Below, piece after piece: positions 54,910 to 63,828 of a DNA stretch of 64,000 nt. The stretch is from assembly GCA_902615025.1 (NCBI GenBank), contig CACMNV010000006.1, forward strand, positions 1 through 64,000. The letters run 5' to 3'. The position numbers and the translations under genes are program-made. Under the pieces are notes generated by a model. It worked only from the letters and a program-made list of their open reading frames with translations. It was not told the DNA's origin and made no database searches. The DNA comes from an uncultured SAR116 cluster alpha proteobacterium (lineage in GTDB: Bacteria; Pseudomonadota; Alphaproteobacteria; Puniceispirillales; Marisalimonadaceae). Position 1 is the stretch's first letter, and each line of letters starts with the position of its first letter.

Positions 54910-55920
54910 TTGAATTATTTTTTTAGTATTTTTTTTGCAGTATTTGGAGGTTTTGTAGCTTACAAAATTAACATTCCTCTTCCATGGATGTTAGGGCCAT
55001 TATTTGTGATAGGTTTTTTGTGTGCCATTAAGGTTGAATTAACACTCCCTAAAAAACCACTTCCATTATTTAGAGCCTTACTTGGATGTGTTATAGGAAC
55101 AAATTTCACTGATGAAATTTTCAGTAATATTAATCAGATTGGCAAGTCATTGTTTTTTCTACCTATTTTTGTAATCATAATGATTTGTTGTACCTATTTT
55201 GTTTTAAAAATTATCATGAATTATGATAAAAAAACCTCTTTAATTGGATCTATGCCAGGAGGATTAAATGAAATGGTTCTTCTAGTATCTGAGATTGGTG
55301 GAAATGAAAGAATAGTAACTTTATTGAATACAACTAGGATTATAATAGTAGTTACAATTGTTTCAATTCTAACCCATTTATTTGCTAAAAACATCGCATA
55401 TGAAACTTCTGAAATTTTATATTTTTCACATTTAGATGACTTGTTTTTTATTTTTTTAATTTCAATTATTGGTTTTTATACTGGAAAATTTTTATCTATT
55501 CCAGGATACTCTATAATTGGCCCTATGTTGCTTTCAAGTTTTTTTCATGGATTTGGTATAATAAATTTATCACCAAATATTATTTTGATTATTGTAATAC
55601 AAATTTATCTAGGTTCAAATCTAGGTTTATATTTTAAAGATATCAAATTAAAAGAATTTTTAGGCCCCATCAAAGCTGGAGTTTTAAGTACGTTTATTTC
55701 TTTTGTTCCACTTTGTTTATTTTTATATGTTTTAAATTTTTTTGGGTATGACCTTTTATCTTTAATTTTATCTTATGCACCAGGGGGACAAGCAGAGATG
55801 TGTATTCTTACATTATCTATTGGTGGAGATATTGTATTTGTTAGCATACACCACGTGTTTAGAGTTTTTTTTGTTATATTTTTGGCAACTATTTTAAAAA
55901 AATATCTATTAAAAATTTAA
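54910..55920 (+). CDS. AbrB-duplication membrane protein
   Basis: Multi-spanning membrane protein of 336 residues from the AbrB duplication family (TIGR03082), often misnamed ammonia monooxygenase. NIPLPWMLGPLFVIGFLC in the first half and SIPGYSIIGPMLLSSFFHGF in the second show the duplicated motif; SMPGGLNEMVLLVSEIGGN and YAPGGQAEMCILTLSIGGD are the paired glycine-rich loops. The function is unproven. Its position at the end of an acid-catabolic operon suggests transport of a substrate or product. The likely start is TTG 54910. Its end overlaps the convergent FliL-like gene by 4 bases. Confidence 0.8.
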   Translation: MNYFFSIFFAVFGGFVAYKINIPLPWMLGPLFVIGFLCAIKVELTLPKKPLPLFRALLGCVIGTNFTDEIFSNINQIGKSLFFLPIFVIIMICCTYFVLKIIMNYDKKTSLIGSMPGGLNEMVLLVSEIGGNERIVTLLNTTRIIIVVTIVSILTHLFAKNIAYETSEILYFSHLDDLFFIFLISIIGFYTGKFLSIPGYSIIGPMLLSSFFHGFGIINLSPNIILIIVIQIYLGSNLGLYFKDIKLKEFLGPIKAGVLSTFISFVPLCLFLYVLNFFGYDLLSLILSYAPGGQAEMCILTLSIGGDIVFVSIHHVFRVFFVIFLATILKKYLLKI

Positions 55921-56507
55921 CCTTGCTTGATTACAAATGTTTTAAAAACAGCATTAAATATAATTGGATCTTCTTCTTTACTTATTAAGAATTCATTCAT
56001 AGAGTCTCTTATAGCATTAAGAAATTCATTTCTATTTTCATTACCTAAGAATTCATTAGTTTTTCTTTTTTCAATTTCTTTCATAATAATATTACGAAAA
56101 TCTGGATCATACTCTTTTAAAAAATCGCCTAGTTTTTCTCCTTCATATGATGAAAAAGCAATTTCCATACTTAAATAATTGTTAGACCCTTTAATATTTG
56201 AAACAAAAGATTTATTAGAGTTAGGTCCCATTCCTCCTATATCATAATATGTAAGAGAGGGTATGATAACTTTTCCGTCTGCCCCAATTTTAGGAACCTC
56301 TTTGTCACTTTCTATTCTTCCTAATTCAATAGCTTCTTCCTTTGCAACTTCATAGATATCTATTTTTTCTTTTTTTGGTTCAAATTTAAATAAAATTGAA
56401 TTAGAGAAGAAGAAAAATAAAAAGGTAAGTGTGCTTGAAATTAAACCTAAACCTGCGAGTAAAAGGTATTTTTTTTGAGTTATTAGTGAAATTATTTTTT
56501 TAAACAT
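55917..56507 (-). CDS. fliL: FliL-like flagellar basal-body protein
   Basis: The 196 residues have one N-terminal transmembrane helix (residues ~16-38) and a periplasmic domain with NNYLSMEIAFSSYEG and the EFLNAIRDSMNEFL segment ending IFNAVFKTFVIKQ. That pattern (a beta strand, acidic region, then RD-x-hydrophobic helix and final strand) matches FliL, which surrounds the stator at the motor. It lies 12 bases downstream of the cyclic-nucleotide-binding gene on the same strand and marks the start of the flagellar island. Low sequence identity makes this a good but not certain call. Confidence 0.75.
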   Translation of the reverse strand: MFKKIISLITQKKYLLLAGLGLISSTLTFLFFFFSNSILFKFEPKKEKIDIYEVAKEEAIELGRIESDKEVPKIGADGKVIIPSLTYYDIGGMGPNSNKSFVSNIKGSNNYLSMEIAFSSYEGEKLGDFLKEYDPDFRNIIMKEIEKRKTNEFLGNENRNEFLNAIRDSMNEFLISKEEDPIIFNAVFKTFVIKQG

Positions 56508-56519
56508 ATTTTATTTTAA

Positions 56520-56918
56520 TTAATCTTTTATTGATTTATATATATCTCTTTCGATCCAATATTTCTCTGCTAAATCATTGGCATCACCAATTCTTAGAGA
56601 TAACCCTCTAATTATAGCTGATAAAAGTGGGTCAGCTTCATTCATTTTTTTTATCAATACATTTTCATTTATAATTTTTATTAAGCTTTTTTTGGTTGCT
56701 ATAGCAGTGACTGTTCTAGGTGATTTGATAACATGTCCAACCTCGCCAAATATCTCACCCTCTCTTAGTAAACCTAGTTCAAGACCATTTTTACTTAATA
56801 TTTTTACTTCTCCACTTTCAATTAAGTAAATATAATCAGATAGATCATTATGGGAGTAAATGATATCACCTTCAGTAAATGTTTTTGTTTCGATAATAGA
56901 CTTTCTTGTCATATTCAT
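56520..56918 (-). CDS. Cyclic-nucleotide-binding domain protein
   Basis: A single cNMP-binding domain of 132 residues without an attached effector. Visible are FTEGDIIYSHNDLSDYIYLI, ESGEVKIL, LREGEIFGEVGHVIKSPRTV with the phosphate-binding Gly-Glu and Arg, and TAIATKKSLIKI. An HTH is not seen, so it is not a CRP-like regulator. Paired with fliL, it may tune flagellar motor activity by a cyclic nucleotide; that link is inference. Confidence 0.8.
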   Translation of the reverse strand: MNMTRKSIIETKTFTEGDIIYSHNDLSDYIYLIESGEVKILSKNGLELGLLREGEIFGEVGHVIKSPRTVTAIATKKSLIKIINENVLIKKMNEADPLLSAIIRGLSLRIGDANDLAEKYWIERDIYKSIKD

Positions 56919-57176: not shown

Positions 57177-57929
57177 CTATCCTTTTGAAAAGGGAACAAC
57201 ATTTAAATTATTTTTACTATTATGATAAATTTTATCTAATTCGCCTTTTACTACAAATTTATTAACAAAATCACCAAATTTGCCAAAATCTTCACCAGCA
57301 TTTTCACCTTCTTTCATATTATAATTTCCATTATAAAAATGTCTTACACTAGCTAAATCTCTTATAGCTGGTCCAATGACAACGTCATGATTCGAAAGTC
57401 TTTTTGCCATAATGGAGTAATCTTTTTGACCAAAGGGTATTTTATTTGGGCAAACTACTAAATGAGGATAAATTTGGTTATATCTTGCCTTAACTTTATC
57501 CATACTTTTAATAAAACTTTCAGTTGGAGCTAAATCAGCATTACTTAATGAGGTTGGTATTAGTACACAGTAGCTTTCACCAACTAAGTTCCAAAGTCGT
57601 TGAGATGTCCCAGCTGGTGTATCGATTATGACTACATGACCGCTTTTAAAGCTATTCTGTTTAATAAATTGTTGAAGTAGTGCAATGTTTGTATTTTCAA
57701 AAGCTGGGGTAATTGGAACAAACTCAATGTTAATTTCGGGGTTGCTAGCAGATAAAAACTCTGTTGTTGTTCTTTGCAAGTCAGTATCAATAACGGTAAT
57801 GTTTTGAGGAGGTAAATTTAATGCTAGAGCTCTTGCTAACATGATACTTAAGGTACTTTTGCCAACTCCACCTTTAACATTTGCTATAAATATAGATTTG
57901 GCAGTTTCTTTACTAGAAAAGTTAACCAT
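57177..57929 (-). CDS. ParA/MinD-type ATPase without ParB
   Basis: P-loop ATPase of 250 residues. The deviant Walker A is VKGGVGKSTLS at 18-28, an acid-containing strand VIDTDLQRTT follows, and the Walker B-like VVIIDTPAGTS is near 98. These are ParA-family features that position cargo on the nucleoid or membrane. No parB or centromere-like repeat is next to it. It ends a six-gene minus-strand run in the flagellar island, downstream of a coiled-coil gene (3 bases). It is distinct from FlhG at 61886. A role in placing flagella or a related structure is inference. Confidence 0.82.
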   Translation of the reverse strand: MVNFSSKETAKSIFIANVKGGVGKSTLSIMLARALALNLPPQNITVIDTDLQRTTTEFLSASNPEINIEFVPITPAFENTNIALLQQFIKQNSFKSGHVVIIDTPAGTSQRLWNLVGESYCVLIPTSLSNADLAPTESFIKSMDKVKARYNQIYPHLVVCPNKIPFGQKDYSIMAKRLSNHDVVIGPAIRDLASVRHFYNGNYNMKEGENAGEDFGKFGDFVNKFVVKGELDKIYHNSKNNLNVVPFSKG

Positions 57930-57932
57930 AAA

Positions 57933-58316
57933 TCACACGTTTTTTAATGATGTAATTAAATTTATTGCTTTGTCATACATTTCTTTTTCTTTTTGAATAT
58001 TTGTCAATTTTTTATCAAGATTATTTTTTCTAATTTCAAAACTTTTCATTAATTCATTTAATTCACTTATTAAATCATTTTTTTCTTTTTCAACAGCTTT
58101 TAACTTATTAATAATACTATTAATTTCTGTAAAATTCTCAAATAAATTACTGTTAGAATTATCAAGGTTATTACTGTCAAAATTGTCTTCAGTTACATTT
58201 ATATTCAGGTTATCTGAGTTATTTAATTCTAGCTCATCTTTCTTTTGTATAACCTCTTGCGGTAGTTTTTTCCAACCACCTTTTCTAGTTAATACATTTA
58301 CTTCATAATTATCCAT
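57933..58316 (-). CDS. Coiled-coil protein partner of the ParA gene
   Basis: The 127-residue protein begins MDNYEVNVLTRKGGWKKLPQ. It then has an Asn/Asp-rich linker and, after about residue 68, a long Lys/Glu coiled coil (INKLKAVEKEKNDLISELNE onward). No known family is recognised. It is 3 bases from the ParA gene and so is probably co-transcribed and possibly an adaptor that links the ATPase to its cargo. Confidence 0.65.
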   Translation of the reverse strand: MDNYEVNVLTRKGGWKKLPQEVIQKKDELELNNSDNLNINVTEDNFDSNNLDNSNSNLFENFTEINSIINKLKAVEKEKNDLISELNELMKSFEIRKNNLDKKLTNIQKEKEMYDKAINLITSLKNV

Positions 58317-58404
58317 ATTATAAGCTTATACTAAACTGCCAAATTTGTCTATAAGTAATTGAAAACACATAATAATTAAAAATTATAAAATCAACAGTTG
58401 ATAT

Positions 58405-58701
58405 TTAATTTTGATCTTCTCTTTTACATTTGAAACTAGTTTGACACTGTGGCGATGGTTGCATTACTGTTACATCTTTGCCTTTTAATTGCCTCCTAAA
58501 TATACATTTATATCCATCTTTTTTTCCGTCTTTTAGGTTGATTTCAACTTTCTTTAACCTACACAATTCATATTTCTTATATTCTTTATCAATTGTCTGC
58601 GACTTACCATAAATTTTACCGCTTCCAAAACTGAATTGTGAATTTAAAACTAACAAAATTAATAGAATGAAAATTAAAAATTTATTTCCCATTTTCTTCA
58701 T
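58405..58701 (-). CDS. Small secreted Cys-containing protein
   Basis: From Met at 58701 the frame begins MKKMGNKFLIFILLILLVLN, a signal peptide, followed by about 75 residues with Cys in YELCRLKKVEI, YKCIFRR, PQCQTSFKCKRE, which could form disulfides in the periplasm. Longer upstream starts would overlap the preceding 64-residue gene more. No known family is recognised. It is separated from the coiled-coil gene by 88 bases with no clear feature, so a new transcript may start there. Confidence 0.6.
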   Translation of the reverse strand: MKKMGNKFLIFILLILLVLNSQFSFGSGKIYGKSQTIDKEYKKYELCRLKKVEINLKDGKKDGYKCIFRRQLKGKDVTVMQPSPQCQTSFKCKREDQN

Positions 58702-58876
58702 CTTTTCCAGGTAAATAAGCTTTTCCTTGGATTGCTTTAGCACCAATTTTATCAAAAAAATCAGAATGTTCAGATAAAAACTTTTGTATTTTGGAATTAA
58801 TTATATTTTCAGCATCTTCTTTAGTTTTTTCGTTAACATTAGCAATGCCATCAATAATCCAATGAACTTTATACAT
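58682..58876 (-). CDS. Small protein, function unknown
   Basis: A 64-residue frame beginning MYKVHWIIDGIANVNEKTKE with helical, charged content and ending PGKDEENGK. It lies 2 bases after the Sel1-like gene and overlaps the next gene's start by 20 bases, so spacing supports it. The KVHWIIDGIA start recalls small ferredoxin-fold-like pieces, but nothing is certain. Confidence 0.55.
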   Translation of the reverse strand: MYKVHWIIDGIANVNEKTKEDAENIINSKIQKFLSEHSDFFDKIGAKAIQGKAYLPGKDEENGK

Positions 58877-58878
58877 AC

Positions 58879-59499
58879 TTAACCTCCAAGATTGTTGATT
58901 TTATTGAAAATCTTAATAGATTCTTTTTGAATTTCAAATAATCTTTCTTTTTCAATTTTTTCAATCATTTCATCTCTTTTAATTTTAGCTGATTTTATGC
59001 CAAGGGCTACTGCAATATTGTACCACTTATAAGCATTTTCAAAATTTGGTTCAGGTGAAAGTTCTATATTCCATTTAGCAATTTGTACAATTGCAAGTTT
59101 ATCTCCAGCTAGTGCAGATTTGTTAAGAAATATTTTAATTTTTTCATTAATTTTAAATTTATTTTCTTCACCTATTAAATCATTTAATTTACTAATAATA
59201 TTAGAACTTTTTTTTAATCCACCAAGTTTAGACGTATTTGCCCAAAAATAAGACATTTCAAAATCTTGAGTAGTGATCTCTCCTGAATAGAGTATTTTTG
59301 CATAAAGTAATTGTGCTTCAGTTTTGTTCTTTTCTGAGAGGCCTTTAAGTTTGTTAATTGCTTCAGTAAATTGTTTATTTCTTAAGTGCTCATATACGTT
59401 TTCAAGATTATTATTATGATTATTACTGTATGATTTATTTGATACTATTATAAGATAAAGAATTAATAGAAAGAAATGGATAATATTACTAATTTTCAA
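58879..59499 (-). CDS. Sel1-like repeat protein, exported
   Basis: 206 residues with an N-terminal hydrophobic segment (FFLLILYLIIVSNKSYS) as signal peptide, then Sel1/TPR-like helical pairs: EAQLLYAKILYSGEITTQD, DFEMSYFWANTSKLGG and NFENAYKWYNIAVALGIKSA. Sel1 proteins are periplasmic or membrane-side scaffolds for protein interaction. It lies 4 bases after the NHLP-like gene and is probably co-expressed. MotX-like flagellar proteins in other bacteria also carry Sel1 repeats; here that comparison is only suggestive. Confidence 0.72.
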   Translation of the reverse strand: MKISNIIHFFLLILYLIIVSNKSYSNNHNNNLENVYEHLRNKQFTEAINKLKGLSEKNKTEAQLLYAKILYSGEITTQDFEMSYFWANTSKLGGLKKSSNIISKLNDLIGEENKFKINEKIKIFLNKSALAGDKLAIVQIAKWNIELSPEPNFENAYKWYNIAVALGIKSAKIKRDEMIEKIEKERLFEIQKESIKIFNKINNLGG

Positions 59500-59503
59500 A
59501 AGC

Positions 59504-59893
59504 TTATCTCCCAGCCATCATTATTAGTTGAAGTTGAACAACTCTTACTTTAAAATTTGATTTACCTTTTCTTTCATAAACTACAATTTTGGGTCTTTTT
59601 GTATCAGGTTTTTGAAATTCTAAAAACATTTCATCAGGCAAAAAAACGCCGTTGTCAGATAAAGTTCTTAATGGGTCCGTTTTAAATTTATCTTTAAAAT
59701 TTTCATCTATCCATATTCTTGCTAAAACTCTTCCTAATATTTCTGGCAAATATTTTTTAACTTCATTTCTATTTTCAAGAAAAATTTCATCATCAACTAA
59801 ATCTAAAACTGAACTTTCATTATATTTCACTGGCAATTTTTCTTTTGCTTTGGTTGATACAATGAGTTCTTTGCTTTTAGATTGTGAAGACAT
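59504..59893 (-). CDS. NHLP/nitrile-hydratase-leader-like protein
   Basis: The 129-residue protein has an acidic N-terminal part with DLVDDEIFLENRNEV. Then comes GRVLARIWIDENFKDKFKTD, followed by PLRTLSDNGVFLPDEM and KIVVYERKGKSNFKV. The pattern (ARxWxDxxFKxxxxxDPxxxLxxxGxxxPxx) is the nitrile hydratase alpha/NHLP leader-peptide fold used by some RiPP precursors. No RiPP modifying enzyme, transporter or RRE protein is near, and the protein continues for about 40 residues past the leader-like part to an ending MMAGR. It opens a six-gene run in the flagellar island. Confidence 0.62.
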   Translation of the reverse strand: MSSQSKSKELIVSTKAKEKLPVKYNESSVLDLVDDEIFLENRNEVKKYLPEILGRVLARIWIDENFKDKFKTDPLRTLSDNGVFLPDEMFLEFQKPDTKRPKIVVYERKGKSNFKVRVVQLQLIMMAGR

Positions 59894-59972: not shown

Positions 59973-60791
59973 ATGTTAAATATAATTAAATCGTCATTAA
60001 ATGCAAATATGAGAGGTATCTCTCTTGTTTCAAACAATATAGCTAATAGTAATACGACTGCTTTTAAAAAAAGTTATAGTAATTTTTCAGATATATATTC
60101 TAAGACCATTGGTGATGATCCAAAAGGATTTTCAGGGATGGGAGTAATTAATGATTCTCCAAGAAAACAGATGTTTCAAGGACCACTTAAGCAGACTGAT
60201 GGTGCATTAGATTTAGCAGTAAGTGGATTAGGTTTCTTAACATTAGCTAGTCCTAACAATAATGAAAATAGATTTTATACGAGAGATGGAAGTTTAGGGT
60301 TATCCAGTAATGGAGAGGTTATAAATCAGCAAGGTCTAAATCTTCTTGCACACCCAGTTGTTGGTAATGCCACATATAATCCAGCTATTCTTGAAAAGGT
60401 AATTATACAACCTAGTATTACAGATACATTAGGCAATACCAGAATCCTTACAAATGTAAATGTTTCACCATCAGGCGTTTTAAAAGCTATTTACGGATTA
60501 GATGAAGAAGTTGTAATTGCTAAAATACCTCTTACTTCTTTTGAAAGTATGGAAGCATTGCAATCTGAAGGGAACAATCTTTTCACACCCACAACTAAAT
60601 CAGGCGAACCTATAGTTGGAATAGCATTAGAGAAAAATATGGGTGAAATAATCCCGGGATTTTTAGAGGGTTCTAATGTAGAAATAACAGATGAGTTAGT
60701 AAAGATGTTAAAATATCAACAAGCTTATTCAGGAAATTCAAGATTGTTGCAAACTGAAATAGATATCACAAAAAGACTCATAGACAGATAA
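59973..60791 (+). CDS. Flagellar hook/basal-body rod family protein (FlgE/F/G)
   Basis: Secreted axial protein of 272 residues. The N-terminal rod motif is SLVSNNIANSNTTAFKKSYS; the middle has DGALDLAVSGLGFLTLAS and the YTRDGSLGLSSNGEVIN segment. The C-terminus LKYQQAYSGNSRLLQTEIDI is the matching coiled coil. FlgF, FlgG and a short FlgE share these parts, and length cannot decide between them. Single plus-strand gene convergent with the next, in a flagellar island. Confidence 0.9.
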   Translation: MLNIIKSSLNANMRGISLVSNNIANSNTTAFKKSYSNFSDIYSKTIGDDPKGFSGMGVINDSPRKQMFQGPLKQTDGALDLAVSGLGFLTLASPNNNENRFYTRDGSLGLSSNGEVINQQGLNLLAHPVVGNATYNPAILEKVIIQPSITDTLGNTRILTNVNVSPSGVLKAIYGLDEEVVIAKIPLTSFESMEALQSEGNNLFTPTTKSGEPIVGIALEKNMGEIIPGFLEGSNVEITDELVKMLKYQQAYSGNSRLLQTEIDITKRLIDR

Positions 60792-60793
60792 AC

Positions 60794-61174
60794 TTATAAT
60801 AATGGTAAATAAATTTTGTAATTATTAATTACTGTAATTATCTCATCTTTAATCTCTAATATACCTTGATTGTTAATTTTAAGATTTTCAGCAATGTACA
60901 AATCAATTTTACCAGGTTTATCAAATTTCATAGAAAATAAGGTATGGAATTTTCCAAAAAAATGATCTTCAGCAATTAAATTGCCTTCCATAATTGCTCT
61001 ATTATGTTTTATTAATAATTCTTGTTTAAGATTAGTATTTGAATTAACTAAAAACAAATTACATCTACCTTTATATACATTTAACAAACTGCATGACAGG
61101 TTATAGTACATAATACTAAGATTACTATCATATCTAACATCTATAGATTGAATTTGCATTTCCAACTTATTCAT
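60794..61174 (-). CDS. Unknown protein next to fliA
   Basis: 126 residues: MNKLEMQIQSIDVRYDSNLS, then mostly beta-like strands (YYNLSCSLLNVYKGRCNLFLV) and EIITVINNYKIYLPLL at the end. No known family is recognised. It starts 2 bases after the fliA stop on the same strand and ends 2 bases from the convergent hook-protein gene, so it is very likely co-transcribed with the flhF-flhG-fliA group and may be a flagellar protein. Confidence 0.6.
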   Translation of the reverse strand: MNKLEMQIQSIDVRYDSNLSIMYYNLSCSLLNVYKGRCNLFLVNSNTNLKQELLIKHNRAIMEGNLIAEDHFFGKFHTLFSMKFDKPGKIDLYIAENLKINNQGILEIKDEIITVINNYKIYLPLL

Positions 61175-61176
61175 AT

Positions 61177-61896
61177 TTAATTAAATTCATCTTTAATGTT
61201 GGATCTAATTAACTTTAAAGCTGATGACTTAATTTGTGAAACTCTTCCAGTAGAAATTTCTAAAATTTCTGCAATTTCATAGATGTTTAATTCTTCAACA
61301 TAATAAAGTTGAATAAGCATTGCTTGTTTCTCATTCAGACAAGATAAAGACTTTTTTAAAATTTCTTTTAATTCTTTGTTATTAATATTTTGCTCTGGAC
61401 TATCCTCATTACTAACAAACCAATAAGAAAATTCGTCATAAATATCATCAATATTTTTAATAGTGCTTGCTTGAAAAGCTGCTTCCCATTCTAAATATTT
61501 ATTGTGTTCTATATTAATTTCTTTTGCAATTTCTATGCTGTCGGGTACTCTACCAAGTTTTTTATTTAAATTTTCAATGGCATTTTCAGCTGTCTTTTTC
61601 ATTTTAATAGTTGATCTACATAAACTTGAATTCTTTCTTAAATAATCTACTATCTCACCTCTGATTCTTAAGCTTGCATATGAACTGAAAGAAGCATCTT
61701 TCACTGGTTTATAATTTTGAGCAGCAGAAATTAATCCTATCATTCCAATTTGGATTAGATCTTCAATATCAATAATAGATTGAACTCTTCCATGAAGGTG
61801 CCATGCAATTTTTTTAACAAGTTCGTAGTTGTTTTTAATTAAATCTTCAACAGTAGGACCAATGATTTTTTGATAATTATTCATTTCAATTTTCAA
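61177..61896 (-). CDS. fliA: Flagellar sigma factor FliA (sigma-28)
   Basis: Sigma factor of 239 residues. Region 2 ([40 protein letters not shown]) and region 3 ([17 protein letters not shown]) are clear, and region 4 ([20 protein letters not shown]) is the HTH for the -35 element. Small size and lack of region 1 fit the flagellar class. It overlaps flhG by 11 bases and follows flhF, the order known in polar-flagellated bacteria. An anti-sigma FlgM is not in the window. Confidence 0.94.
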
Positions 61897-62659
61897 AAAA
61901 TTTTATATTTTTGTTTTTATTTGATTTTAGATTTTTTAAATTTTTACAAATTGTTTCAAAATATACTGTTTCTTTAATATTTTGATTATCAATTATTGGT
62001 TTTCTTGACAAAATTGATTGTCTTATTAATTTTGAGTTATTTACACATCCTAAGTAAGTTAATTTTATATCTAAAAATTTAGTAGATATTGAACTAAATT
62101 TTTCAAAATGATTTTTTGCTTGAAAATCATTATTACTCATATTCCAAACAATGCCAAAATTATCTAATCTTTCATCTAAATAACTTGCTTTAACTAAACT
62201 ATATGCATCTGCGAAACTAGTTGGTTCACTCACTAAGACTGTAATTATCTTGTTTGCAGCTGACATAAACGAAATTGAAGAAGTGTCTGCTCCAGCACCT
62301 ATATCAATTATCATATAATCATAAGTTTTTTTGATCTCGTTAAAGCTTTTTATTATGTTATATCTCTCTGTATTTTCAAGATTCAGTAATGAATGAACAG
62401 CACTTCCTCCAGATATAAAGTCTAAATTTTTATTAATTTTATAAGAAATTTTACTAATAGGAGTTTTTTTATTAATGAAATCATCTAGAGTTTTTTCTGG
62501 ATTAACACCTAATACTAGATGTGCATTTGCCATTCCTAAATCCGCATCTAATAGCAAAGTCTTGTTTCCATTTTTTGCTAATGTCAAAGCAACGTTAACC
62601 GCAATAGTTGTCTTACCAACTCCACCTTTGCCACTTGATACAGCAATACTTTCTGTCAT
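61886..62659 (-). CDS. flhG: FlhG/FleN flagellar-number ATPase
   Basis: MinD-like ATPase of 257 residues with the deviant Walker [14 protein letters not shown] at 8-20, [17 protein letters not shown] near 35, [14 protein letters not shown] near 112 and [15 protein letters not shown] near 142. FlhG counteracts FlhF to set flagellar number and place. It lies 26 bases after flhF and overlaps fliA. Confidence 0.95.
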
Positions 62660-62685
62660 AAATTTACCTTTTTATTAAGTATTAA

Positions 62686-63828
62686 TTAGTTTTCTTTCAT
62701 ATATTGTGCCAAAATGAGGCTATTTGCAAAAGCAATTGAGTCTATTATGTTATTTGTTCCAGACAACAATCCTAATTTACAGTTTAAATCATGATACATT
62801 GAAAAATCATAAGAATTTACAATTATTTCATCTAGTTTAGTTAAAACATTGATAGGGTTTAGTCCATCAAAATAACTCATTTGTTTTTCTAAGCTTTTAA
62901 AATTAATCCCAGATTGAATAACATTTAAAAGTAATTTTCTATTATCCAAATGTGTAATTTTCAAGTAATTATTAAAATTTTTGTCAACTAAAAAATCTTT
63001 AGAGATATCAACAATTATTGTTTCATTGTTATTTTCTGAGATATATTTATTTAGATTTTCAATTTCTGAAAAAGAATAAACATTTAAATTTAAGACTCTT
63101 CCAAAATTAAATAAATTAGAAGTCTTATTTGGAGAAGTTTTTCCAAAGTTTATTAATGTAATATTATTATTATTATGAGATAACATTGATTGATCAAGGA
63201 AATATGAAGCAATTTTTGCACAGATTGTTGTTTTCCCGACACCTGATAAACCGGCAACTAAAATAGTTTTAGAATTTAATAATTTATCTTTTAAATCAAA
63301 CGTTAGCTTCTTAGACAAAACGTCATAAAAATTAATTATTGATCTTGAAGTTTCATTTTTGTTTAAATTTTCAAAAATATTATTTATTGTTTTTTTTGAG
63401 TATCCTGCATTTAATAATTTTATAAAATTATTATCATCAATATGATTATTTAAAGAGTTTAAATCAGTAAAAATACTCTCATTTAAAATTGATTTAATTT
63501 CACACTTAAAAATTTCTAAATCTTTCTTTGAAATAAAATTTTCTTCATCTGTTAATTTTTCATTTTTGTTATTTTTAATTACGGAATTAATGCTGTTATT
63601 AGAGAAATTTTTAGATAAAGGAGCCTTCGAAAAAAGTTCTTTAAAGTCAGGTTTTTTTTTATTTTTTTTACTTGATTTTAAAATATCTTTAATATCATTT
63701 GACCCAATGATTTCAATTTTTTGACCTATTTTTTTTGTAGATAAAATTACAGCATCTTGGCCTAAGACTCTCGTAATTTCATCCATCGCAGTCATGCTAT
63801 CATCTGATAAAACTTTATGTTGCGTCAT
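62686..63828 (-). CDS. flhF: FlhF flagellar-placement GTPase
   Basis: SRP-type GTPase of 380 residues that marks the pole for flagellum assembly. The basic N-terminus MTQHKVLSDDSMTAMDEITR carries ITRVLGQDAVILSTKKI, typical of FlhF. The NG domain has VAGLSGVGKTTICAKIA near 191-207, and LTKLDEI near 335 for guanine recognition. The C-terminal GTPase half looks divergent: a DISKDFL segment stands where G3 (DTAG) is expected. It lies 17 bases downstream of flhA. Confidence 0.88.
   Translation of the reverse strand: MTQHKVLSDDSMTAMDEITRVLGQDAVILSTKKIGQKIEIIGSNDIKDILKSSKKNKKKPDFKELFSKAPLSKNFSNNSINSVIKNNKNEKLTDEENFISKKDLEIFKCEIKSILNESIFTDLNSLNNHIDDNNFIKLLNAGYSKKTINNIFENLNKNETSRSIINFYDVLSKKLTFDLKDKLLNSKTILVAGLSGVGKTTICAKIASYFLDQSMLSHNNNNITLINFGKTSPNKTSNLFNFGRVLNLNVYSFSEIENLNKYISENNNETIIVDISKDFLVDKNFNNYLKITHLDNRKLLLNVIQSGINFKSLEKQMSYFDGLNPINVLTKLDEIIVNSYDFSMYHDLNCKLGLLSGTNNIIDSIAFANSLILAQYMKEN

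Follow-up and report, generated by a model that had tools for sequence, protein, structure and literature searches.

The window analysed here is a stretch of 64,000 nucleotides from an uncultured SAR116 cluster alphaproteobacterium (contig CACMNV010000006.1, positions 1 to 64,000, to which all unprefixed coordinates refer). It contains, at 57177-59893, a run of six genes lying among flagellar genes. A first-pass annotation had described these as six consecutive minus-strand genes, split by one 88-base gap and with no named flagellar family among them. These points were borne out, with all six open reading frames (ORFs) found at those coordinates with the sizes given earlier, and with the gap between the fourth and fifth genes measuring exactly 88 bases. 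The same annotation had treated the run as a single system. Our comparison of genomes shows instead that it is two units, a block of four genes (NHLP-Sel1-p64-Cys) and a coiled-coil/ParA pair. The block is co-inherited as part of the flagellar cluster in SAR116 and in a few other alphaproteobacteria, and its four genes probably encode unnamed parts of the flagellum. The features of the run are as follows:

59504-59893, minus strand: NHLP-like protein, 129 amino acids (aa), with a disordered N-terminus, three helices, three strands and an invariant C-terminal tail; no core peptide
58879-59499, minus strand: Sel1-like protein, 206 aa, whose hydrophobic N-terminal stretch was taken for a signal peptide; modelled as an all-helical solenoid of Sel1 repeats
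58682-58876, minus strand: p64, 64 aa, without a signal peptide or known family; motif KVHWIIDG...AE...QGKAYLPG
58405-58692, minus strand: Cys protein, 95 aa from its ATG, with a signal-peptide-like N-terminus and four invariant cysteines; without known family
58349-58362, minus strand: conserved element TCAATTAcTTATAG, preceding the coiled-coil gene and probably giving the coiled-coil/ParA pair its own promoter or operator
57933-58316, minus strand: coiled-coil protein, 127 aa, with a conserved basic N-terminus, MDNYEVNVLxRKGGWKK; candidate ParA partner
57177-57929, minus strand: ParA-type ATPase, 250 aa, with a KGGVGKST Walker A motif; no ParB nearby

Within each half of the run the genes are separated by only 2-4 bases or overlap, as where the start of the Cys gene overlaps the end of p64; an alternative, longer start of the Cys protein is possible at a TTG at 58755. 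Families in the genome comparison are labelled f1, f2 and so on, f1 being that of the window, and close relatives of its ParA come from records named SAR116 cluster bacteria. Where contigs allow, the order flhF-flhG-fliA-p126-(flgF)-NHLP-Sel1-p64-Cys-CC-ParA (CC, coiled coil) is kept in 16 further f1 genomes belonging to four genera, and the six genes are therefore not chance ORFs. On either side of the run are the following features:

55917-56507, minus strand: FliL (PF03748, E = 1.4e-7)
56520-56918, minus strand: cyclic-nucleotide-binding-domain protein, 132 aa, a constant neighbour in f1
59973-60791, plus strand: flgF-type rod protein gene, divergent from NHLP and flanking the block in f1, f2, f3, f4 and f22
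60794-61174, minus strand: p126, an unnamed protein of 126 aa, conserved between fliA and flgF
61177-63828, minus strand: fliA, flhG and flhF, from homologue and order comparison, with names from the first-pass annotation and the sequence

The cyclic-nucleotide-binding-domain protein between ParA and fliL had been overlooked in the first-pass annotation, as had the oppositely oriented flgF and p126 between NHLP and fliA. The genes fliA, flhG and flhF are those of the polar-flagellum sigma factor and of the control of flagellar pole and number, and the presence of flhF and flhG suggests that the flagellum concerned would be polar.

The division of the run became apparent from profile searches conducted with each protein against the corresponding loci of other families. 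The NHLP-Sel1-p64-Cys block was identified at the same place in the flagellar cluster in f3 and f4, which belong with f1 to the order Puniceispirillales (SAR116), and in genome G284 of f22; the latter family lies outside this order, and its block is next to flhF-flhG-fliA-p126-flgF. No coiled-coil/ParA pair adjoins the block in f3, f4 or G284, and the Cys gene went undetected in some f3 loci. Family f2 has only NHLP-Sel1-p64 at this place (L139, L140), with its coiled-coil/ParA pair located elsewhere (L073, L074). The block occurs without an adjacent ParA or coiled coil in f2, f3, f4, f12, f22 and f108, and the pair is joined to it only in f1. Conservation of gene order, which the first-pass annotation had proposed to test, extends to all six genes in the 16 further f1 genomes, but other families keep NHLP-Sel1-p64(-Cys) without the pair.

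Lying in the 88-base gap is a conserved element, TCAATTAnTTATAG, with two variants at positions 4-5. Most f1 loci have a single copy of it a short way upstream of the coiled-coil gene; the pattern was not found in L028, L032 or L033, the last of which is cut at a contig end. The position of this element before the pair suggests that the pair may be transcribed separately from the block. Outside f1, most genomes of the order carry relatives of ParA (~29-37% identity), and wherever their surroundings were read these loci were non-flagellar. The original proposal was of one envelope system in which ParA, with the coiled coil as adaptor, positions a complex of the Sel1-like protein, and it would be in keeping with the retention of all six genes in order across four genera of f1 and with the existence of the pair in f2 too. 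We regard it as very doubtful given the families in which the block has neither gene beside it, the ParA relatives at unrelated loci in f2, f3 and f4, and the pair's own upstream element. Nothing shows ParA positioning a Sel1 complex, because its pairing with the block is limited to f1, the pair has its own element, and ParA relatives elsewhere are in non-flagellar loci.

The link of the block to flagella is strong. NHLP and FlgEFG-type genes occur together in 91 of 136 genomes of the order; 30 have neither, 14 have FlgEFG only and a single genome has NHLP only (Fisher p = 2.6e-18). This and the other presence/absence tests are uncorrected for kinship, and incomplete genomes are numerous in the set. 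In the sole NHLP-only genome (G084) the contig begins near the start of NHLP, with a FliL relative just downstream, and some of the 14 FlgEFG-only genomes may represent assembly breaks (e.g., G040, whose contig opens immediately ahead of ParA). Of 385 alphaproteobacteria sampled, nine match the p64 profile, the same nine have the strong NHLP matches, and each of them carries flagellar genes. The first four genes of the run track with flagella; those ParA relatives outside f1 whose surroundings were read are in the non-flagellar loci described above.

A different flagellar arrangement is seen in G239 (f108). Here the NHLP-Sel1 pair follows genes for an LPP20 (LPP20/FlgP) protein, an FlgT_N protein, a LysM-like protein and FlgA and precedes those for flagellin and FliS, and a p64 relative is found beyond the mot genes. 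Genome G087 has a second, divergent NHLP-like gene directly after a flagellin gene (L121:8446-9934, G087:C29). Hook genes of unusual length were also observed, with FlgE-type open frames of ~1250-1740 aa in the genome of the window (G000:C20:2172-6860, L136) and in G077, G082, G143, G239 and G284. Every block carrier with a full hook gene visible has an FlgE-type frame well over 1200 aa, which is far above the length in most other genomes listed. The tie between the block and very large FlgE is suggestive and not exclusive, as six genomes lacking the block (G324, G209, G309, G404, G374 and G276) have a very large FlgE too.

These arrangements raise the alternative that the block serves in assembly or quality control: NHLP and p64, in the cytosol, would chaperone or regulate the export of flagellin or of the outsized hook protein, and in the periplasm the Sel1-like and Cys proteins would aid rod or hook assembly. 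The NHLP genes next to flagellin in G087 and G239 and the hook frames of the carriers would fit such a role. We consider it unlikely, however, given the six genomes with a very large FlgE and no block and the FliS gene near the module in G239, where no missing chaperone would be replaced. For G239 the presence of FliS rules out NHLP as a FliS replacement.

The naming of the first protein as NHLP-like reflects a real similarity. The window copy itself falls below the curated cut-off of TIGR03793 (E = 4.8e-6, 26.3 versus 50.9 bits), but the model matches all members of a broad NHLP alignment (30/30, best E = 1.1e-7). A profile search of the PDB found a proteusin leader (8tb1, E = 7.2e-5) and a nitrile hydratase (1v29, E = 7.5e-6). 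The structure predicted from the 30-sequence alignment has a mean predicted local distance difference test score (pLDDT) of 81, rising to ~91 in the core. It aligns with 8tb1 at Z 5.9 (root-mean-square deviation, rmsd, 3.0 over 70 residues; top row of a second-look alignment), with the proteusin leader 9cjx at Z 4.9 (rmsd 4.0, 76 residues) and with nitrile hydratase alpha at Z 2.8; nothing significant came out of a plain Foldseek search with the model. Although the Z values are modest, the two top rows are both proteusin leaders, the family that the sequence search had found independently. With NHLP and proteusin leaders (TIGR03793; 8tb1, 9cjx; Os1348, 6lk7; the N-terminal region of nitrile hydratase alpha) the window protein shares motif 1, AxxWxDxxFxxxFxxDPxxxLxxxG, and a succession of three helices and then strands.

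It differs from them at its end. In the founding description of NHLP (Haft et al., 2010, PMC2887384) a variable core comes after the leader, which ends in ...AVAGG. The family described here has a nearly invariant C-terminus, [IV]M[ML]AG[RK] and then a stop (the two most divergent members end in TR or SA), so that an AGR/AGK end replaces the Gly-Gly cleavage motif and there is no hypervariable core rich in Cys, Ser and Thr. It is thus a leader domain that lacks both core and cleavage site. It is also set apart by having flagellar neighbours rather than those of ribosomally synthesized and post-translationally modified peptides (RiPPs); no RiPP modifying enzyme or peptidase-ABC exporter recurs among the neighbours of the block in seven families, distant loci not having been searched. 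A precursor of a modified peptide (of the proteusin, thiazole/oxazole or lanthionine type), with the other genes serving its maturation and export, is thus extremely improbable despite the match in sequence and fold to NHLP and proteusin leaders: the protein is not taken as a RiPP precursor because it ends at the Gly-Gly position with an invariant tail and no core. NHLP-like proteins of this block should accordingly not be annotated as RiPP precursors. Identity as a nitrile hydratase was also rejected, as the window protein has no CxxCSC metal motif, no cysteine at all and no beta-subunit gene beside it. Genuine nitrile hydratase alpha and beta genes are found elsewhere in the same genome (L089:2021-3381, G000:C23).

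The signal peptide of the Sel1-like protein was judged by eye from its hydrophobic N-terminus. The Sel1 match of the window copy is weak (E = 0.0024), but 25 of 26 members match, with a best E of 6.6e-10, and the predicted structure (pLDDT 91) is a helical solenoid resembling Sel1-repeat proteins in general. Two components of flagellar motors offer comparison. MotX of the Vibrio T ring (8z5n, 9yfg, 9yec) is likewise a secreted Sel1-repeat protein of ~200 aa tied to a flagellum having FlgP/FlgT-type genes, and its profile gave E = 0.005. PflA/PflB, the disk proteins of Campylobacter (9leq), form a helical-repeat scaffold of an enlarged polar motor; the model aligns with this complex at Z 7.3 (74 residues, rmsd 2.9), a generic solenoid resemblance with no sequence relation shown. 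Searches of Pfam, NCBIfam and PDB profiles returned nothing usable for p64 or for the Cys protein.

The reading that we favor, at a probability of roughly 55%, is that the products of the block assemble into an accessory structure at the base of an H-ring-type polar flagellum, the coiled-coil/ParA pair being separate. As to the molecular role, we infer that the Sel1 solenoid and the four-cysteine protein, once exported to the periplasm, would build a scaffold close to the basal body or the stators, acting like MotX or PflA without being either. NHLP and p64, which have no signal peptide, would be cytosolic partners, the NHLP domain serving as a protein-binding domain and not as a RiPP leader, and the assembly may stand beside the H-ring-type set (LPP20/FlgP, FlgT). 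More tentatively, and with odds against it, a RiPP-type leader domain that lost its core and cleavage site may have become the fixed cytosolic subunit of a new envelope-spanning motor part, together with three nameless families.

Several observations weigh against a flagellar accessory assembly. The block was missing from 217 of the 226 flagellated genomes among the 385 alphaproteobacteria, and it cannot therefore be a core flagellar part; two f12 genomes (G374, G276) likewise have flagella and no NHLP match. The alignment of the Sel1-like model with MotX (8z5n, Z 8.4, 98 residues, rmsd 3.5) is tied with those to generic Sel1 proteins, and MotY (PF18393) was not found in 16 carriers at E 1, in a search whose controls were only sub-threshold and whose sensitivity is unproven; membership of the MotX family is not shown. 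Relatives of the Cys protein also occur away from flagellar genes (e.g., L127). No solved relative demonstrates a flagellar role. Finally, f12 carries an intact NHLP-Sel1-p64-Cys block beside bactofilin-like genes, and in G143 the block is ~85 kb from the nearest rod and hook genes on the same contig, though these f12 genomes are flagellated.

The f12 locus also bears on the idea that the block serves some unrelated process of the cell envelope, its presence in flagellar clusters being due only to inheritance of the cluster as a unit. Its bactofilins, and a lytic transglycosylase gene near the block in f12 and f2, would suit such a process. We think it quite improbable, as the block stays with flagella through several different arrangements, and block and flagellar genes are missing together across the order. 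The bactofilin-like genes are three in a row adjoining the block (L115:10402-11498). The transglycosylase genes are of SLT type (L139:6143-6961, L140:11240-12037, L115:13618-14238); a Pfam match was obtained for L139 only, and a possible SltF-like rod-penetration enzyme may be represented. Cys-protein relatives with extra cysteines were noted in non-flagellar loci at L127, L129, L131 and L133.

Returning to the second unit, orphan ParA proteins such as PpfA and McdA position cargo via small partners (PMC9178275). The window's ParA has KGGVGKST and D103 invariant in 21 sequences (a deviant Walker A with Walker B intact), PpfA sharing the classic KGGVGK Walker A motif. As in PpfA/TlpT and McdA/McdB, a small ParA without ParB adjoins the gene of a small coiled-coil protein with a basic N-terminus; unlike those systems, there are no chemotaxis or carboxysome genes beside it. 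The N-terminus of the coiled coil is MDNYEVNVLTRKGGWKK in the window. Although the f1 and f2 partners share only 24-25% identity, they all keep M1 and R11, and nearly all keep N3, N7 and K17. The analogy makes the coiled coil a candidate partner of ParA, and its basic N-terminus may stimulate the ATPase. Alongside the favored flagellar assembly, the pair would be a separately controlled addition that may place a cargo close to the flagellar pole, much as PpfA/TlpT or McdA/McdB do with theirs. Near the ParA relatives of f3 and f4 there is a membrane protein whose C-terminus carries a conserved motif, LRxLYxxGHIxxDxYxxExRxLYxxA or one like it (L071:5668-6204, L072:7301-8185, L075:9934-10419), likely a different ParA partner. 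A phage or plasmid origin was discounted, as PHROGs yielded nothing beyond a ParA-like family and a single weak match to an unknown one.

In the surface ocean, few heterotrophs are as abundant as SAR116 bacteria. Flagella and motility are unmentioned in the main text of some published SAR116 genome papers, and our literature search found no paper linking NHLP to flagella, only chance overlaps of terms, though not all hits were examined. If the block does form part of the flagellum, unnamed families would be added to the flagellar parts list, an extra density would be predicted in the motor, and a natural-product leader domain would have been reused as a structural or adaptor domain.

Two of the flanking genes may also merit attention. 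In every family that has the cluster, the p126 gene stands between fliA and flgF, and its product has no reliable Pfam match. The cyclic-nucleotide-binding-domain protein is a stand-alone protein, situated between ParA and fliL throughout f1, and it may tune the motor or transcription.

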